Origin: Marivita hallyeonensis | GTDB lineage: Bacteria; Pseudomonadota; Alphaproteobacteria; Rhodobacterales; Rhodobacteraceae | Direction of reading: 5' to 3' | Length of the DNA stretch: 64,000 nt | NCBI RefSeq assembly: GCF_900129875.1 | Contig: NZ_FQXC01000001.1 | Coordinates: forward strand, 930,001-994,000 | Part shown: piece after piece, positions 376-20,073 of the stretch | Position numbering within the stretch: the first letter of the stretch is position 1 | How the letters are laid out: the number at the start of each line of letters is the position of its first letter | Notes under the pieces: generated by a model | Databases searched by the model: none | Told to the model about the DNA's origin: nothing | The model's input: only the letters and a program-made list of their open reading frames with translations | Program-made: the position numbers and the translations under genes

Positions 376-1713
376 TCAGTCCATCAGCTGTTGTGCAAGG
401 GCGTTTTGCCGCTCGACCACGCGCGGCAGATCTAGCGTCGTGACCTCTCCGTCGGCCACGATCTGCCGCCCTTCGACAAAGAGGTGCTTGACCCGCGTCG
501 GGCCAGTCATAAGCAGCGCCGCCGGGTCCCAGCTTCCCGCGCTCTCGACACCTGAGACATCCCAGATGGCGATGTCCGCCCGTTGGCCTACCGCGATCTG
601 GCCGCAGTCGGACCGCCCCAAGACCTCGGCCCCACCGCGCGTTGCGATGTGCAACGCTTCGCGCGGGCTCATCGCATCAGCGCCTTTTGCGACCCGTTGC
701 AAGAGCATGGCCTGACGCGCCTCCGCAATCAGGTTGCCCGCATCATTGCTGGCCGATCCATCAACGCCCAAACCCACCGGCACGCCCGCATCCCGCATTG
801 CGCGCACGGGCGCAATGCCTGAGCCAAGGCGGCAGTTCGAACAGGGGCAATGCGCGACCCCGGTGCGAGATGTGGCAAAAAGTTCAATCTCTTGCCCATC
901 GAGTTTCACGCAATGCGCGTGCCACACATCCGACCCGGTCCATCCCAGGTCTTCGGCGTATTGCCCGGGTCGGCAGCCAAATTGTTCGAGCGAGTAGGCG
1001 ATGTCTTCGTCGTTTTCCGCCAGATGCGTGTGCAACATCACGCCCTTGTCCCGCGCCAGAAGGGCTGCGTCCCGCATCAGGTCGCGGCTGACGGAAAACG
1101 GTGAGCAGGGTGCCACGCCAACGCGCACCATCGCCCCGTCGGACGGATCGTGATGGGTGTCGATCACGCGGATGCAGTCCTCGAGAATTGCCTGCTCCTT
1201 TTCCACCAGCGCATCCGGCGGCAGCCCACCGTCGCTTTCGCCAATGCTCATCGCTCCGCGCGTGGGATGGAACCGCAGTCCGACCTCCTGCGCCGCGGCA
1301 ATCGTGTCGTCCAGCCGCGCGCCGTTTGGATAGAGGTAGAGATGGTCGGAGGTCAGCGTGCACCCCGACAACGCCAGTTCCGCCAGACCGATCTGCGCCG
1401 AGACGAACATTTCCTCCGGGCCGAACCGTGCCCAGATCGGATAAAGCGTCTGCAGCCACCCAAAGAGCAATGCATTCTGCCCGCCGGGAACCGCACGTGT
1501 GAGCGTCTGATAAAGATGGTGATGCGTGTTGACGAGGCCAGGCGTGACAACGCAACCGCGGCCGTCGATGGTTTTCGTGCCGGGCGGCCCCACGAGCCCG
1601 GGTCCCACGGCGGCGACAACACCTCCGTCGAACAGCACGTCGCATTGCCCAAGTTCCGAAGCGTTGTCGTCCATTGTCAGGATGACATCCGCGTTCTGGA
1701 TCAGAGTGCTCAC
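376..1713 (-). CDS. 8-oxoguanine deaminase (amidohydrolase family)
   Basis: A 445-residue metal-dependent amidohydrolase that should convert 8-oxoguanine to urate, a salvage or detoxification step for oxidised purines. The zinc-binding HxH is in NTHHHLYQ (about residue 62-69), followed by HTHLAEN, HAHCV and the catalytic DGSASND. The stretch with FGWLQTLYPIWARF is characteristic of the 8-oxoguanine deaminase branch, as opposed to guanine deaminase or AtzA-type chlorohydrolases. The length fits the family. Its ATG overlaps the stop of the upstream phosphatase gene (ATGA at 1710-1713), so the two are translationally coupled. Cytosine-, isoguanine- or related ring-amine deaminase activity is the main alternative. 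Confidence 0.85.
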   Translation of the reverse strand: MSTLIQNADVILTMDDNASELGQCDVLFDGGVVAAVGPGLVGPPGTKTIDGRGCVVTPGLVNTHHHLYQTLTRAVPGGQNALLFGWLQTLYPIWARFGPEEMFVSAQIGLAELALSGCTLTSDHLYLYPNGARLDDTIAAAQEVGLRFHPTRGAMSIGESDGGLPPDALVEKEQAILEDCIRVIDTHHDPSDGAMVRVGVAPCSPFSVSRDLMRDAALLARDKGVMLHTHLAENDEDIAYSLEQFGCRPGQYAEDLGWTGSDVWHAHCVKLDGQEIELFATSRTGVAHCPCSNCRLGSGIAPVRAMRDAGVPVGLGVDGSASNDAGNLIAEARQAMLLQRVAKGADAMSPREALHIATRGGAEVLGRSDCGQIAVGQRADIAIWDVSGVESAGSWDPAALLMTGPTRVKHLFVEGRQIVADGEVTTLDLPRVVERQNALAQQLMD

Positions 1714-2513
1714 GCCGCGTTCAACCGCTCAAGCGCCGCAGCGTGAAGCTCGGGCGTGGCGGCGGCGAGCGTCCTGCCGCCAAGATGCGCGGAATTTCCC
1801 TGCCAGTCGGTGACAACACCGCCTGCCGCTTCGATCACGGCAATAGGGGCCTGGATATCGTAGGCGTTCAGACCGGCCTCGATCACGAGGTCGATCTGCC
1901 CAATGGCGAGAAGTGCGTAAGCGTAGCAATCGCAGCCGTAGCGTGTGAGTTTCACGTCACGGGCCACGCGCTGAAAGGCGGCGCGTTCTGCATCGGTGCC
2001 GATCTCGGGAAATGTCGTAAAAAGCGTGGCATCACTCAGCTTGGTTGTGCCTTTGGCCTTAAGCGCACCGGAGAGGTGCGGACCATGCCAATCCGCTTTG
2101 CCAAGACCGCCCATGAAGCGCTCTCCGACATAGGGTTGGTCGATCATGCCGAGGATGGGGCCGGTGTCATTCGACAGTGCGATCAAGACAGTCCAGGTCG
2201 GCGTGCCGCTGATGAAGGATCGTGTGCCATCAATCGGATCAAGCACCCAAGTCAGTCCAGAGGTGCCCTCGATCGAGCCGTATTCTTCCCCGAGGATGCC
2301 GTCATCCGGCCGCAGGCGGGCCAGAACCTCGCGCATCGCCGTTTCGGAGGCACGGTCGGCAACTGTCACCGGATCAAATCCGCCGGCCAGTTTGTTGTCG
2401 GCGTTCAAACCCATCGTGCGAAAATGCGGAAGGATCGCGTCGCGCGCGGCATTTGCCATTTCGTCGGCAACAGCCCAAAGCGTGTCTGCTTCGGAGGGAT
2501 CAGGGTTGGTCAT
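1710..2513 (-). CDS. hisN: Inositol-monophosphatase family protein, probable histidinol-phosphatase
   Basis: A 267-residue IMPase-fold phosphatase, cytosolic and Mg-dependent. Metal-ligand motifs are visible: GEEYG (about residue 95-99), DPIDGTRSF (about 112-120) and, near the C-terminus, YDIQAPIAVIEAAGG, which carries the last metal Asp. This branch of alphaproteobacterial IMPases is the HisN type, dephosphorylating L-histidinol phosphate in histidine synthesis. That would complement hisB, hisH, hisA, hisF and hisE further along this window, but hisN is not next to them, so the assignment rests on family resemblance. A short dyad (AGCCCG-CTTA-CGGGCT, 2530-2545) lies just upstream of the ribosome site AAAGGA. 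It overlaps the deaminase gene by 4 bases. Confidence 0.75.
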   Translation of the reverse strand: MTNPDPSEADTLWAVADEMANAARDAILPHFRTMGLNADNKLAGGFDPVTVADRASETAMREVLARLRPDDGILGEEYGSIEGTSGLTWVLDPIDGTRSFISGTPTWTVLIALSNDTGPILGMIDQPYVGERFMGGLGKADWHGPHLSGALKAKGTTKLSDATLFTTFPEIGTDAERAAFQRVARDVKLTRYGCDCYAYALLAIGQIDLVIEAGLNAYDIQAPIAVIEAAGGVVTDWQGNSAHLGGRTLAAATPELHAAALERLNAA

Positions 2514-2565
2514 TTGCGCGTCCTTTGGAAGCCCGCTTACGGGCTACCTCAGGAAACGGGTTCTC

Positions 2566-2940
2566 TCAAGCGACGTCTGACAAGACGCGGGCAAGCTCGA
2601 ACAAGCGACGGCGCTGGTTTTCCGGGATCGAATAGTACGACCGGATCAGGTCAAGGGCTTCCTTGTCCCCAAGAAGGTCCGCAGGAACCGCTTCGGCCAT
2701 CGGAGTTTGGTTCTCGTGCGACTCCTCGATGCCTTCGAAGAAAAACGCGACCGGCACGTCCAGCGCGTCGGCAATGTCCCAAAGCCGCGAGGCGCTCACA
2801 CGGTTTGCGCCGGTTTCGTATTTTTGAATTTGCTGGAACTTGATACCCACTTTTTCCGCCAGCTGCTGTTGGGTCATCCCAACCAGCCAACGACGGTGTC
2901 GAACGCGTTTACCCACGTGTACGTCAACAGGATGTGCCAT
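2566..2940 (-). CDS. XRE-family helix-turn-helix transcriptional regulator
   Basis: A 124-residue regulator with an N-terminal Cro/C1-type helix-turn-helix: RRWLVGMTQQQLAEKVG is helices 1-2 and KFQQIQKYETGANRVSASRL is the recognition region, about residues 16-52. A short C-terminal dimerisation or effector part ends FELARVLSDVA. I chose ATG 2940 because a GAAAGAGAG ribosome site precedes it and homologues begin MAHPVDVHVGKRVR; a longer frame opens at 2988 but has no better site. Similar short regulators are common in roseobacters. Its target is not shown. The hisN-deaminase pair lies directly downstream on the same strand, 52 bases away, so it could be their regulator or simply share the transcript. 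Confidence 0.8.
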   Translation of the reverse strand: MAHPVDVHVGKRVRHRRWLVGMTQQQLAEKVGIKFQQIQKYETGANRVSASRLWDIADALDVPVAFFFEGIEESHENQTPMAEAVPADLLGDKEALDLIRSYYSIPENQRRRLFELARVLSDVA

Positions 2941-3236
2941 TGTGCTCTCTTTCGTCAGACGCGAGACCGCGCCGTTCATATCGGACAAGGAGCCTAATCG
3001 CTGGTGTTTAACCGAAAACTAAAAGACAACCTATCCGATTGTTGGTGAAATGACGCTATAGCATGACAGGTATCAGAGCAAGATAATTGCTGCTGCCAAA
3101 TCATGAAAAGGTTAACGAATTGCAATCAATTGGCGAGTGCTGACGGGATTTTTCGTGTTCTATCATAGGTTTTGTTCGCGTTTGGGTTGTCATATAACCC
3201 GCTGAAATATGGATTGATTTGGAAAGAGGATCCGAC
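2941..3236. other. AT-rich divergent intergenic region with two dyads
   Basis: This region separates the divergent XRE regulator and quinone oxidoreductase genes and is visibly richer in A+T than its surroundings. Two inverted repeats can be read: AATTG-CAAT-CAATT at 3118-3131 and GGGTT-N7-AACCC at 3184-3200, the second about 40 bases before the oxidoreductase start. They are plausible operators for the adjacent regulator, but nothing in the sequence proves which protein binds. No gene is seen here. Confidence 0.4.
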
Positions 3237-4202
3237 ATGAAGGCCTATCAAGTCACAAGCCACGATACGGATCCCTCGGTCACGGAGGTGCCGACACCAT
3301 CCCCGGAAGCCGGAGAGATTCGGGTCGAAATCGAGACCTGCGGTCTCAATTTCGCCGATCTTCTGATGGTCAAAGGAACCTATCAGGACACCCCGGAACT
3401 TCCTTTTACCCTGGGCATGGAAGTGGCCGGCAGAGTCGATGCGCTTGGCGATGGCGTGACGGGCTTCAATGTGGGCGACCGCGTCGCGGTGTTCGGCGGC
3501 CAGGGCGGGCTTGCTGAATACGGGTGTTTCGACGCACGCCGCGCCGTTCGACTGCCCGACGATATGCCGATGGAAGACGCGGCCGCGTTCCAGATCGCCT
3601 ACGGCACCAGCCATGTTGCGCTGGACCATCGGGCAAATCTGCAAACGGGCGAAACCCTCCTGGTTCTTGGGGCCGCGGGAGGTGTGGGTCTCACGGCGGT
3701 GGAAATTGGTAAGCTGATGGGCGCAACGGTTGTCGCTTGCGCCCGAGGCGCGGCCAAGCTGGAGGCGGCGAAAGCGGCCGGGGCCGATCACCTGATCGAC
3801 GCTGAAACGCAGGACATCCGTACCGAAATGAAAGCGCTCGGAGGCGCGGACGTGGTGTACGATCCCGTCGGTGGAGAACAGTTTGAAGCGGCATTCCGGT
3901 CCTGCAAGCCCGAAGCGCGGCTTTTACCCATTGGTTTCGCAAGCGGGGATGTGCCGCAGATCAAGTCGAACCACCTGCTCGTCAAGAACCTGTCGGTGCT
4001 CGGGCTATATTGGGGTGGCTATCTTCAGTTCCGACCGGAAGTGATCACGCAAAGCCTGAAGACACTTCTGGAATGGTACTCCGAAGGAAAACTGAAGCCA
4101 CATGTCAGTCACGTCCTGCCGCTCGAGCAGGCTGCTGAGGGGCTGGAGTTGCTCCGGTCGCGGAAGTCGACTGGCAAGGTGGTCATCAAAGTGACCGCGT
4201 GA
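3237..4202 (+). CDS. NADPH:quinone oxidoreductase family (zeta-crystallin type)
   Basis: A 321-residue medium-chain reductase/dehydrogenase without the structural-zinc cysteine cluster, so a quinone or enone reductase rather than an alcohol dehydrogenase. The N-terminal GroES-like fold carries CGLNFADLLMVKGTYQ (about residue 37-52). The NADPH-binding Rossmann motif is LGAAGGVGLTAVEIGKLMGA (about 144-163). The C-terminus VLPLEQAAEGLELLRSRKSTG is typical of the family. The start at 3237 is preceded by GAAAGAGGA and begins MKAYQVTSHD, as in homologues; an earlier in-frame ATG at 3219 is less likely. It converges with the LysR gene, whose stop is 3 bases away. Confidence 0.85.
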   Translation: MKAYQVTSHDTDPSVTEVPTPSPEAGEIRVEIETCGLNFADLLMVKGTYQDTPELPFTLGMEVAGRVDALGDGVTGFNVGDRVAVFGGQGGLAEYGCFDARRAVRLPDDMPMEDAAAFQIAYGTSHVALDHRANLQTGETLLVLGAAGGVGLTAVEIGKLMGATVVACARGAAKLEAAKAAGADHLIDAETQDIRTEMKALGGADVVYDPVGGEQFEAAFRSCKPEARLLPIGFASGDVPQIKSNHLLVKNLSVLGLYWGGYLQFRPEVITQSLKTLLEWYSEGKLKPHVSHVLPLEQAAEGLELLRSRKSTGKVVIKVTA

Positions 4203-17225: not shown

Positions 17226-17693
17226 ATGACTGAGATGGACCGGTACCTCAAGAACATCCTGACCCGCACCAAAACCATCGCGGTGGTTGGCGTGTCCACG
17301 AACCCGGTGCGTCCGTCCTACTACGTCGCGCGTTATCTGGGGCTGAAAGGCTTCACGGTGATCCCGGTCAACCCGGGGCACGCCGGGAAAGCGCTGCTAG
17401 GCAACACCATTGTCGCGTCCCTGTCCGAGATCGATCAACCCGTTGACATGGTGGATATCTTCCGCCGGTCCGAGGCGGTCCCGCCCATTGTAGACGAGGC
17501 GCTTGACGTGTTCCCCGACCTGCAAACCATCTGGATGCAGATCGGCGTCGAACACGCAGAGGCCGCCGCCAAGGCTGAAGCGCGCGGCGTGGACGTGGTG
17601 ATGAACCGGTGTCCCAAGATCGAATACCAGCGCCTGTTCGGCGAACTGCGTATGGGCGGTTTCAATACCGGCGTGATCTCGTCAAAACTCTGA
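17226..17693 (+). CDS. CoA-binding domain protein (YccU-like)
   Basis: A 155-residue single-domain protein with a Rossmann-type CoA-binding fold: TKTIAVVGVSTNPVRPSY (about residues 17-34), then GFTVIPVNPG, VDMVDIFRRSEAVPPIV and the C-terminal DVVMNRCPKIEYQRL. It corresponds to the succinyl-CoA-synthetase alpha-like CoA-binding family found alone in many bacteria. Its exact role is unknown. It sits alone behind a strong terminator and converges with the DUF692 gene, whose stop is 8 bases away. Confidence 0.87.
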   Translation: MTEMDRYLKNILTRTKTIAVVGVSTNPVRPSYYVARYLGLKGFTVIPVNPGHAGKALLGNTIVASLSEIDQPVDMVDIFRRSEAVPPIVDEALDVFPDLQTIWMQIGVEHAEAAAKAEARGVDVVMNRCPKIEYQRLFGELRMGGFNTGVISSKL

Positions 17694-17700
17694 GGCGCGC

Positions 17701-19140
17701 CTAACTCGCCCCCGCCGCCTGAACGAACCCTTCGGCAACGGCTTCGGGCAGGATTTCCAATTCCCACGCGGGCGGCGTCGGAGGATCGGGCAGGCGGCCT
17801 TCCGACAGCGCTTCGAAAATCGGCGCGGGATCACCGGGGAAATGCACGATCTGCGGCGTCGTCTCTTTGAGCAACCGCACAAACGCGATGTCGTACTCCA
17901 AGAGGCCCAGCATCAACGGATCGTCCTCGCCCATCTCCAGCAACCACGCCCGAAACGCCTGCGCCTCCAAGGGGGCGTACATCTTTGGCGAATGCGCATC
18001 AAAATACGCGTTCATCTTCGCCTCGAACCCTTCACCATCCCGGAGCAAGCCGTAGCGCACGGTACGCGGCATTGCGCGGGTCAGCATAGAGCCCCTGAAC
18101 GACCGCGCCAGAAAGGCATAGAGCGACAACAGCGGATGATCCTCGGGCCAGGGATGACCGGTCGGATCGGCGGTCCAGACCGACAGTGTGAGACTGTCTT
18201 CCCACGCCTCAACCGTGGTCTCTGGCGCGGGCGGCGCTCCGCGAAGGTCCACGGGTCGCGTGTCCGACCGGCTCTGCCCCGCGCCGTCCCAAATCGCGCG
18301 CAGGCCATCGACGATGGTATCAAACACCGCGGGCTCAAGCCGTTCGAGGAACGTGTCGTAGATCTCGAAATTGATGGCGCCAAGGTTGGGAAGCTCTGCA
18401 ATCACCTCCCGCGCACGCGCCGCGAGGGCATCGGGCATCGGCCCAGAGTGGCTGTCCAGCCACACACCGCCCATGTCATCGCCACCCGCGAGATGCACCT
18501 CCCACACGCGGTCGAACGGGATTTGTGCGAGGGTCTCATCGAAATCGATCCGCCCGTTACAATGGTTGCACCACAGATTGTGCAGGTCGAGCAACAGCCC
18601 GCACTGGGCCTGTTCGGCCACCTGTGCCAGAAACTCACCATCGGGCATCTCGAAAGGCTTCCGCTTCAGGTAAGCCACCCCGGTTTCCACCGCGATGGGT
18701 CGACCGACCCCCGCCCGGAAGGCAGCGATGTTTTCAACCGCCGTGGCCACGCCCTCGTCGGTTTGCAGCGGCGGCAACAGAAAACCCGCGGATCTATGCG
18801 GCGTGCCGGCGATGGACAGGTGCTCGGACACCCAAGGACTATCCAACCGTTGCGCCGTTTCACGCAGCAGCGCCATTTGTCCGGGACTGGGCTTGCGCCT
18901 CCCGCCCAGCGGAACACCCACAGAATGCACCAGCTTGGCTTGAGGAAGGGCGGCAAATGCCTCCATCGCGGGGCGGTATTCCGCAAACGGACCCGCAATC
19001 GCATCCTCTGCCAGCCAGAGCGTCTGCGGTTCGATCTCTAGCACGTCCAGCGCATCAGGCCGACGGCGCAGAAACGGGTCCAGCGCCGCCGAAAAGATCA
19101 TCCCGATGCCCAGCTTCGGTGGCTGGAACATCGCGCGCAT
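17701..19140 (-). CDS. DUF692 (MNIO) multinuclear iron oxidase with an extra C-terminal domain
   Basis: A 479-residue protein. Residues about 8-285 are the DUF692 TIM barrel of multinuclear non-haem iron oxidases, the family of MbnB, TglH and the bufferin enzyme BufB. The metal ligands are in place: H72 (VHSVGVPLGG), E106/H107 (SEHLS), E152, D185/N188 (LDLHNLW), H216 (EVHLAGG), H231 (DSHSGP) and E259 (NFEIYD). Residues about 305-479 form a second, helical domain with EYDIAFVRLL; its position resembles the DUF2063/BufC-type partner that is usually a separate gene. MNIOs remodel cysteine (or other) residues in small precursor proteins. It starts one base after the stop of the cysteine-motif protein gene (TAGAATG), so the two are coupled. 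Substrate and product are inferred. Confidence 0.85.
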   Translation of the reverse strand: MRAMFQPPKLGIGMIFSAALDPFLRRRPDALDVLEIEPQTLWLAEDAIAGPFAEYRPAMEAFAALPQAKLVHSVGVPLGGRRKPSPGQMALLRETAQRLDSPWVSEHLSIAGTPHRSAGFLLPPLQTDEGVATAVENIAAFRAGVGRPIAVETGVAYLKRKPFEMPDGEFLAQVAEQAQCGLLLDLHNLWCNHCNGRIDFDETLAQIPFDRVWEVHLAGGDDMGGVWLDSHSGPMPDALAARAREVIAELPNLGAINFEIYDTFLERLEPAVFDTIVDGLRAIWDGAGQSRSDTRPVDLRGAPPAPETTVEAWEDSLTLSVWTADPTGHPWPEDHPLLSLYAFLARSFRGSMLTRAMPRTVRYGLLRDGEGFEAKMNAYFDAHSPKMYAPLEAQAFRAWLLEMGEDDPLMLGLLEYDIAFVRLLKETTPQIVHFPGDPAPIFEALSEGRLPDPPTPPAWELEILPEAVAEGFVQAAGAS

Positions 19141-19141
19141 T

Positions 19142-19564
19142 CTAGCCGAACCGCATCGCCTGCGCGTCGACGTTCAGCTTTTCGTCCAGCACGAAGTTGT
19201 GTTCGATCTGCAAGCGAAGGTCGTGGCCCGAACAGCAGGCGTCATGACCGCTGAAGCGGGCGATCCGGTCAATTGCAGCGTAGACATTGTCGATTTTGGC
19301 TCCGACCTCCGGGCTCATCGCAACCGTGTTGCGCGCGGCTTTCATCTGAAGACTTGCCGTCGCGCGCGGCACTGCGATGTCGGACAGGTCACGGAAGACC
19401 ATGTCGCGGTGCAAATCGAAACGGATGTCGTGGCCTGAACAGCAGGCCTGACAGCCCAGCTTGTCGAGGATCGACCCCACGGCTTTTTTGAATGTGCCAA
19501 GGTCAGCTGCGACCGAGGCGGGAAGGGAAACGCGAACCGGGGTTACATGGGATAGTTCAGCCAT
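19142..19564 (-). CDS. Small protein with duplicated ACCSGHD motifs, probable MNIO substrate
   Basis: A 140-residue protein that I do not recognise as a named family. It has two copies of a motif, CQACCSGHDIR (38-48) and DACCSGHDLR (108-117), each preceded by a short helix (SILDKLG, AAIDRIA) and followed by an amphipathic strand (FDLHRDMVF, LQIEHNFVL). The only cysteines are in the motifs: three in the first, two in the second. There is no signal peptide or membrane segment. I chose ATG 19564 because GAGAGG lies 8 bases upstream; a GTG at 19573 is the alternative. Its stop is one base from the start of the DUF692 enzyme, which suggests that it is the peptide that the enzyme modifies. A cysteine-rich metal-binding protein matured by the MNIO is the main alternative. 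Confidence 0.75.
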   Translation of the reverse strand: MAELSHVTPVRVSLPASVAADLGTFKKAVGSILDKLGCQACCSGHDIRFDLHRDMVFRDLSDIAVPRATASLQMKAARNTVAMSPEVGAKIDNVYAAIDRIARFSGHDACCSGHDLRLQIEHNFVLDEKLNVDAQAMRFG

Positions 19565-19764
19565 CTGGAACACCTCTCAAAAGTTGCTTTGGAAAAAAAT
19601 GAGCACAAAAACTGCACATCGTGAGCGTACCACGTGCGCCGATTCTCTCTATTTATGCGGGAAAGCCCTGGGCCAAAATCTGCTTAGGGATAAGCCAATC
19701 TCTGCCGAGGACTCGTCAAGCCGTTGACGTAAGGTCAGTAATCCATGCGCTGGAACTCGCCGAG
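19565..19764 (-). promoter_or_regulatory. Intergenic region and candidate promoter of the MNIO unit
   Basis: The 200 bases upstream of the cysteine-motif gene (downstream of hisE) are more AT-rich than the flanks. On the minus strand a possible sigma-70 pair, TTGACG and GCTTAT with an 18-base spacer, lies around 19694-19723. This suggests that the unit has its own start rather than depending only on read-through from the histidine genes. No known operator is recognised. Confidence 0.35.
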
Positions 19765-20073
19765 TTAAGTGCGACCAGCCTTCTCTTGCAGGCCGGACTG
19801 CCCCTGACGCTGCTCCAGCTCAGCCATCACGTCGGCAAGGGCAACGTTCTGGGACTTCAGCATGACGAGCAGGTGAAACAAAACGTCCGCGGCTTCCGAG
19901 GTCAGCCGCTCTTTGTCACCCTTGGTGGCCTCGATGATCGCTTCGATCGCCTCTTCCCCGAATTTCTCGGCGCATTTCTCTGGCCCCTTGGCCAGCAGTT
20001 TGGCCGTCCAGCTGTCGTCGGGGCTGGCCTTGGCGCGGGTGGCGATGATCGTTTCAAGATCGTCCAAAGTCAT
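19765..20073 (-). CDS. hisE: Phosphoribosyl-ATP pyrophosphatase
   Basis: A 102-residue MazG-like all-alpha pyrophosphohydrolase catalysing the second step of histidine synthesis (PR-ATP to PR-AMP). The metal-binding helix [14 protein letters not shown] (about residues 36-49) and [16 protein letters not shown] (about 57-72) are the EExxE and ExxD-type motifs of the family. As in other alphaproteobacteria it is a separate gene rather than fused to hisI. Its ATG overlaps the hisF stop by 4 bases (20070-20073). Confidence 0.93.

Follow-up and report, generated by a model that had tools for sequence, protein, structure and literature searches.

A rare two-gene MNIO cassette of Rhodobacterales: a duplicated Cys/His-motif protein and an enzyme with an extra C-terminal domain

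In the window, by which we mean the whole stretch of 64,000 nucleotides of Marivita hallyeonensis DNA that was analysed, the gene of a small protein with two Cys/His motifs stands directly before the gene of an MNIO (DUF692) enzyme. Is the small protein the substrate of this enzyme, and to which of the known MNIO systems is the pair closest? The reading that we favour, with a probability of roughly 0.55, is a two-gene cassette that makes one modified cytoplasmic protein by means of an enzyme with a built-in partner.

The gene pair, its distribution and its surroundings

Both open reading frames were found on the minus strand at the positions given in the preliminary description, and the small protein has its cysteines at residues 38, 41, 42, 110 and 111 as was stated there. 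The genes and the upstream gap are as follows.

19142..19564, minus strand: small Cys/His-motif protein, open reading frame of 140 aa; putative MNIO substrate, adjamnio-IV-like
17701..19140, minus strand: MNIO (DUF692) enzyme, open reading frame of 479 aa; PF05114 match, ligand set invariant
19565..19764, no strand: intergenic gap between the pair and the hisE-like gene, on the upstream side of the pair

The frame of the small protein runs from the ATG at 19564 to the stop at 19142 and that of the enzyme from the ATG at 19140 to the stop at 17701, with one base between the two genes. By eye, a Shine-Dalgarno-like GAGAGG stands 8 nt ahead of the ATG at 19564. No sigma-70-like promoter was found within 17550-19900; provided that the pair has a promoter of its own, it likely lies within 19565..19764. 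The upstream neighbour (19765-20073, minus strand) is presumably a hisE-like gene and the downstream neighbour, which faces the pair (17226-17693, plus strand), presumably a CoA-binding-like gene. Inspection by eye agreed with the earlier remark that no transporter or protease gene is adjacent, and no copper gene adjoins the window pair.

Selection was estimated from three loci whose enzymes are 91-97% alike (L010, L012 and L015). In the three close pairs among them, the small gene had a dN/dS of 0.037-0.043 and the enzyme gene one of 0.039-0.057. Between the window and L007, the small gene gave a dN/dS of 0.175 at a dS of 1.43, which is near saturation. The low dN/dS of both genes rules out chance open reading frames; the small gene and the MNIO gene are a real pair.

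Relatives were sought in genome samples of the order, family and class, which overlap, and in a species-level scan that covered 84,980 genomes, one for each species, with a pair of short peptide patterns, which distant kin can escape. The small protein was matched in 4 of 292 genomes of the order sample. Of the four matches in 394 genomes of the family sample, one (L006, E 0.009) was discarded because it belongs to a longer frame that is unrelated. The class sample gave five matches in 385 genomes, and only the window remained after four weak ones had been set aside: L017 and L020 lie within long unrelated frames, L018 lies within a stretch with stops, and L019, 28 positions long with two stops, was set aside unopened as weak. 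The species-level scan yielded 143 candidate stretches and nine confirmed loci, four of which were already in the samples. The distinct loci number ten with the window, the others being in Marivita, Phaeobacter, Paracoccus (two), Marinosulfonomonas, Loktanella, Rhodosalinus, an uncultured member of Rhodobacteraceae and an uncultured alphaproteobacterium whose locus falls in the window's own family. We take all of these organisms to be Rhodobacterales; the pair is a rare two-gene package in this order. Pattern-based scans of viral contigs detected none with the small protein, its alignment or the enzyme alignment. On plasmids, the small protein had no match at E 1e-3 and a single 36% piece in Rhodococcus (E 2) at E 10; the relative from L011 used as query had none at E 10.

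The small gene lies directly before the MNIO gene in all ten distinct loci, with spacings that range from 3 bases between the genes to 14 bases of overlap when frames are taken from their first start. Adjacency in relatives had been named beforehand as the test of the proposed tight pairing, and no non-adjacent pair was encountered. The ten loci represent at least four gene contexts. The his genes stand upstream in the window, L007, L008 and L011; L010, L012 and L015 lie in another common setting; L009 and L014 have a downstream gene in common; and L013 has, among the matches listed, nothing else in common with the other loci. Comparison of open reading frames revealed, among the matches listed, no gene other than the pair that is common to all ten. 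Both flanks of the window site are shared with L007 only, and L008 and L011 share the his side. In three genomes of the same genus that lack the pair, the flanking genes are separated by 139, 139 and about 18 bases, compared with 2071 bases in the window, and in genome G003 the hisE-like and CoA-binding-like genes touch or overlap. Altogether, the flanking genes were 18-139 bases apart or overlapping in four of the five relatives compared at the hisE site. The closeness of the flanks in relatives without the pair indicates that both genes are gained or lost together, as a self-contained module of two genes.

Three further observations were made at individual loci. In another relative without the pair (G001:C1:2092005-2094439), about 2.4 kb separates the hisE-like and CoA-binding-like genes. 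The CoA-binding-like match in G253 is partial and holds one stop. In Rhodosalinus (L013, 5239-5805), a DUF411-like small Cys protein with a CGCC motif was seen by eye just upstream of the pair, in this one locus of ten. DUF411 has been linked to copper.

A patchy accessory pair of this kind might be decaying or nearly neutral, with an enzyme that is inactive in some hosts. Its rarity (4/292 genomes) would agree with this, as would the locus of Paracoccus amoyensis (L009, 6401-7857), where the enzyme gene breaks into two frames right after LLDLHN and the small gene is intact; this break is either real decay or a sequencing error. Against decay stand the dN/dS of 0.04-0.06 for both genes in the three close pairs and the ligands, all of which are intact in the nine full-length enzymes. 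We regard decay as very improbable.

The small protein

Comparison of the two halves of the small protein showed that it is an internal duplication, each unit holding one Cys/His motif.

19379..19546, minus strand: repeat unit 1, residues 7-62 (profile-profile match of the halves)
19169..19339, minus strand: repeat unit 2, residues about 76-132 (profile-profile match of the halves)
19430..19453, minus strand: motif 1, C38-x-A-C41-C42-S-G-H45 (alignment of ten relatives)
19223..19246, minus strand: motif 2, H107-x-x-C110-C111-x-G-H114 (alignment of ten relatives)

The halves matched each other over 54 columns with a profile-profile probability of 98.8%, compared with 1.6% for the best of 30 column shuffles. 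With the motif omitted the probability was 76.9%, and 30 shuffles reached at most 4.7%. The motifs have the general forms CxxCCSGH in unit 1 and [H/C]xxC[C/A]xG[H/C] in unit 2. In motif 1, residues C38, C41, C42, S43, G44 and H45 are identical in all ten proteins. Motif 2 keeps C110 and G113 in all ten, with variation at three positions: 107 is His in eight and Cys in two, 111 is Cys in three and Ala in seven, and 114 is His in three and Cys in seven. The rows with Ala at 111 have Cys at 114, and the rows with C111 may form one branch, so that a single evolutionary switch may account for what is seen in unit 2. The total is five cysteines in eight proteins and six in two.

The position of C41 and C110 is Cys in all 20 units of the ten relatives. 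A constant C41/C110 together with Cys/His exchange at 107 and 114 is what would be expected of metal ligands plus one chemically needed thiol. Positions 107 and 114 would then be metal ligands, and C41 and C110 appear to be the best candidates for the chemistry. The exchange offers a testable split between residues that bind metal and residues that have to be Cys for the chemistry. Equal weight had at first been placed on all five cysteines, which does not hold for C111, replaced by Ala in seven of the ten relatives.

The small gene's low dN/dS is more in keeping with a folded protein than with a short core and a free leader. Since the AlphaFold2 model of the small protein was unusable (pLDDT 36.8), we infer folding from this pattern. 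Pfam and NCBIfam gave only weak, chance-level matches to the small protein, and no relative was present in the PDB. The strongest 12-residue stretch within the first 45 residues had a hydropathy of 1.03-1.39 in the ten rows, compared with 2.39 for the bufferin-like precursor of the same genome. By this measure, hydropathy only, the earlier view that the protein lacks a signal peptide was borne out.

The preliminary description had called the precursor unrecognised. Its described features match adjamnio-IV, a cluster (cluster IV) of ten proteins of 119-146 aa with 5-6 Cys and a CxxCC motif (Antoine 2025, PMC12452194). According to the passages of that paper on adjamnio-IV, these proteins have no signal peptide, their major organisation is 'Adjamnio-IV - MNIO' with no partner gene listed, and they are judged likely new precursors, predicted only. 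The small proteins of the window type likewise have CxxCC (10/10), 5-6 Cys, a gene before the MNIO gene and no signal peptide. With the starts chosen here they are 140-148 aa long, nine of the ten falling within the published range and L011 (148 aa) outside it. Compared by description rather than by alignment with these passages, the pair showed no feature that separates it from adjamnio-IV. This close fit on every point checked makes the small protein most likely an adjamnio-IV member, by description. Neither the duplication nor the Cys/His exchange nor the enzyme's C-terminal domain comes up in the passages of PMC12452194 on adjamnio-IV. In the open-licence full texts, adjamnio-IV was not found outside PMC12452194, and the open-licence literature yielded no experimental work on it.

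The enzyme and its C-terminal domain

The enzyme consists of a catalytic barrel and an extra domain of about 180 aa (residues ~300-479).

18271..19140, minus strand: catalytic TIM-barrel domain, residues 1-290 (AlphaFold2 model, Foldseek)
17704..18243, minus strand: C-terminal domain, residues 300-479 (AlphaFold2 model); proposed fused partner, PME-type 2-like

The assignment to DUF692/MNIO was upheld by a match to PF05114 (MbnB_TglH_ChrH; E 2.3e-39, 135.7 bits, cut-off 25). An AlphaFold2 model of the enzyme (mean pLDDT 70.4, pTM 0.62) was compared with the PDB by Foldseek; the best match was TglH (8hi7_B, E 4.5e-15), followed by 3bww and MbnB chains. TglH was also the best PDB sequence match (E 4.4e-22). 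Residues H72, E106, H107, E152, D185, N188, H216, H231 and E259 are invariant in the alignment of nine full-length enzymes. The positions listed earlier as metal ligands were correct, with the exception that E106 is likely no ligand: opposite E106-H107 the alignment has N-H in TglH (8hci) and D-H in 3bww, and because the His of both aligns with H107, this residue is the likely ligand. The assignment of individual conserved residues to iron binding is partly presumptive.

A tree of 45 barrel sequences was built from eight of the clade and 37 other MNIOs, the latter taken as best matches from 299 genomes and a number of plasmids; neither TglH nor MbnB was part of it. The clade was split from the other 37 by a branch of 4.56 changes per column (support 100/100), and the nearest outside MNIO in this sample was 31% identical. 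The same genome has a second MNIO, located in an ordinary bufferin-like cluster (L027, G000:C9:901500-907500, 1148-3792, minus strand) with a precursor, a DUF2063 protein and a DoxX-like gene; the signal peptide of the precursor, its four Cys and the DoxX gene were recognised by eye. The genome's only DUF2063 match is in this cluster, about 45 kb from the pair. Within the order, 45 of 61 genomes had a DUF2063 match and 4 of 292 had the pair.

The product of the pair might be a bufferin-like copper buffer kept inside the cell, with several cysteines converted to copper-chelating groups of the thiooxazole type. In NCBIfam the enzyme matched MNIO_BufB best (E 1.4e-33), which points in this direction, and characterised bufferins are copper chelators (PMC12452194, passages on bufferins). 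However, the match scored 116.3 bits, below the equivalog cut-off of 310, 4.56 changes per column separate the clade from the 37 sampled MNIOs, the precursor has no signal peptide and the genome has its separate bufferin-like cluster. Bufferin systems (BufABC/HvfABC) resemble the window pair in having a Cys-bearing precursor encoded before the MNIO, but they have a signal peptide, a separate DUF2063 partner and a DoxX gene, and the pair lacks all three. A buffer of this type is improbable.

In the model, the C-terminal domain has helices at 310-426, a strand at 430-434, a helix at 438-446 and a strand at 459-463, with a pLDDT of 56-69 for residues 311-360 and mostly 61-91 for 361-460. The window row belongs to no Pfam or NCBIfam family, and a sequence search of the PDB gave no match. 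In the order samples the same four genomes had the domain and the small protein (4/244 for the domain, 4/292 for the small protein), in the phylum sample it occurred in one of 299 genomes, which is the window, and on plasmids there was no match at E 1. The domain was seen only together with the small protein.

Partners of PME-type 2 are described as rich in helices, with an RRE-like part that is whole or truncated, and as lacking the DUF2063 signature (PMC12452194, in its passages on partners). The helices followed by strand-helix-strand in this medium-confidence model would agree with that description, and we think it fairly likely, on the strength of the model, that the domain is a fused MNIO partner of PME-type 2-like make-up. 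A fused partner would explain the absence of an adjacent partner gene. No DUF2063 signature was found in the nine members of the domain (Pfam up to E 10), and comparison by hhalign with 11 DUF2063 proteins gave a probability of 0.1%. Profile comparison with one Streptomyces protein encoded before an MNIO gave 0.3%. The HvfC model matched one of the nine members (E 0.12), and an aminoglycoside adenylyltransferase model gave a stronger match to one of the nine (E 0.014). Among the fold matches listed for the enzyme model (50), all are barrel proteins by title. Since profile similarity to partners is absent and these fold matches are all barrels, we infer the partner role indirectly.

It is also conceivable that the small protein is itself a metallo-subunit or an iron or copper chaperone of the enzyme and that the true substrate is encoded elsewhere. 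Its conservation over the full length and its duplicated Cys/His motif with ligand exchange resemble a metal-binding protein, and it has no recognisable leader and core. Yet the small gene precedes the MNIO gene as precursor genes usually do in known systems, where partner genes usually follow (PMC12452194, passages on gene order), and the extra domain of the enzyme is already available for the partner role. We consider a metallo-subunit or chaperone unlikely, and the small protein likely to be the MNIO substrate, as far as the sequences tell.

A proposed route to a modified protein and other MNIO systems

In the two-gene cassette that we favour, the substrate would be folded and duplicated, each of its halves displaying a loop with Cys and His (CxxCCSGHD and a variant). 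The C-terminal domain of the enzyme would do the job of a separate partner of the DUF2063, TglI or MbnC type, binding the substrate and bringing the loop into the di/tri-iron site. There, one or more cysteines would be oxidised with O2. The modified cysteines are rather likely to lie within the two motifs, judging by conservation; the likeliest targets would be those present in every relative, C41 and C110 at matching positions of the units, together with C38 and C42. The product, which has no export signal, would probably stay in the cytoplasm as a metal binder or redox protein. That it is a binder of metal there, most likely copper, seems to us slightly less than an even chance. A more specific version is tentative: a one-enzyme MNIO system with a fused partner would alter one invariant Cys in each of the two Cys/His sites of a folded, duplicated cytoplasmic metalloprotein, giving two tuned copper or redox centres within the protein and no released peptide.

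If the C-terminal domain is a partner, the pair would be a compact two-component MNIO system of one substrate and one enzyme, convenient for studying the structure and mechanism of large-substrate uptake by MNIOs. If the small protein is modified, it would be an MNIO product of protein size in the cytoplasm, a class for which there are so far only predictions according to the passages of PMC12452194 on such proteins.

Two other systems share features with the pair. MovX, of the Vibrio methanobactin-like clusters, is likewise an MNIO in one chain with an extra domain that may act as, or replace, the partner (PMC12452194, passages on MovX). The extra domain of MovX is a winged-helix, whereas the domain here is C-terminal and mostly helical, with another predicted make-up, and the putative substrate here, unlike that of the MovX system, is a 140-aa protein. 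The TglHI system of pearlin (3-thiaglutamate) has in TglH the best match of the enzyme in structure and in PDB sequence, and its substrate also has no signal peptide; its partner TglI, in contrast, is a separate protein, and no other pearlin genes were seen by eye beside the window pair.

Other arrangements around MNIO genes were observed on plasmids. On a plasmid of Streptomyces sp. NBC_01527 (L048, 1965-5735), a 54-aa open reading frame (CEACRGC) and a 274-aa protein precede the MNIO, which is followed by an FAD/NAD(P)-binding protein, a 2OG-Fe(II) oxygenase and an ABC transporter gene; it is possible that this is a larger MNIO peptide cluster. On a Tsukamurella plasmid (L088, 531-3507), a TIGR04222 membrane protein, an MNIO and a hypothetical protein of 61 residues follow one another.
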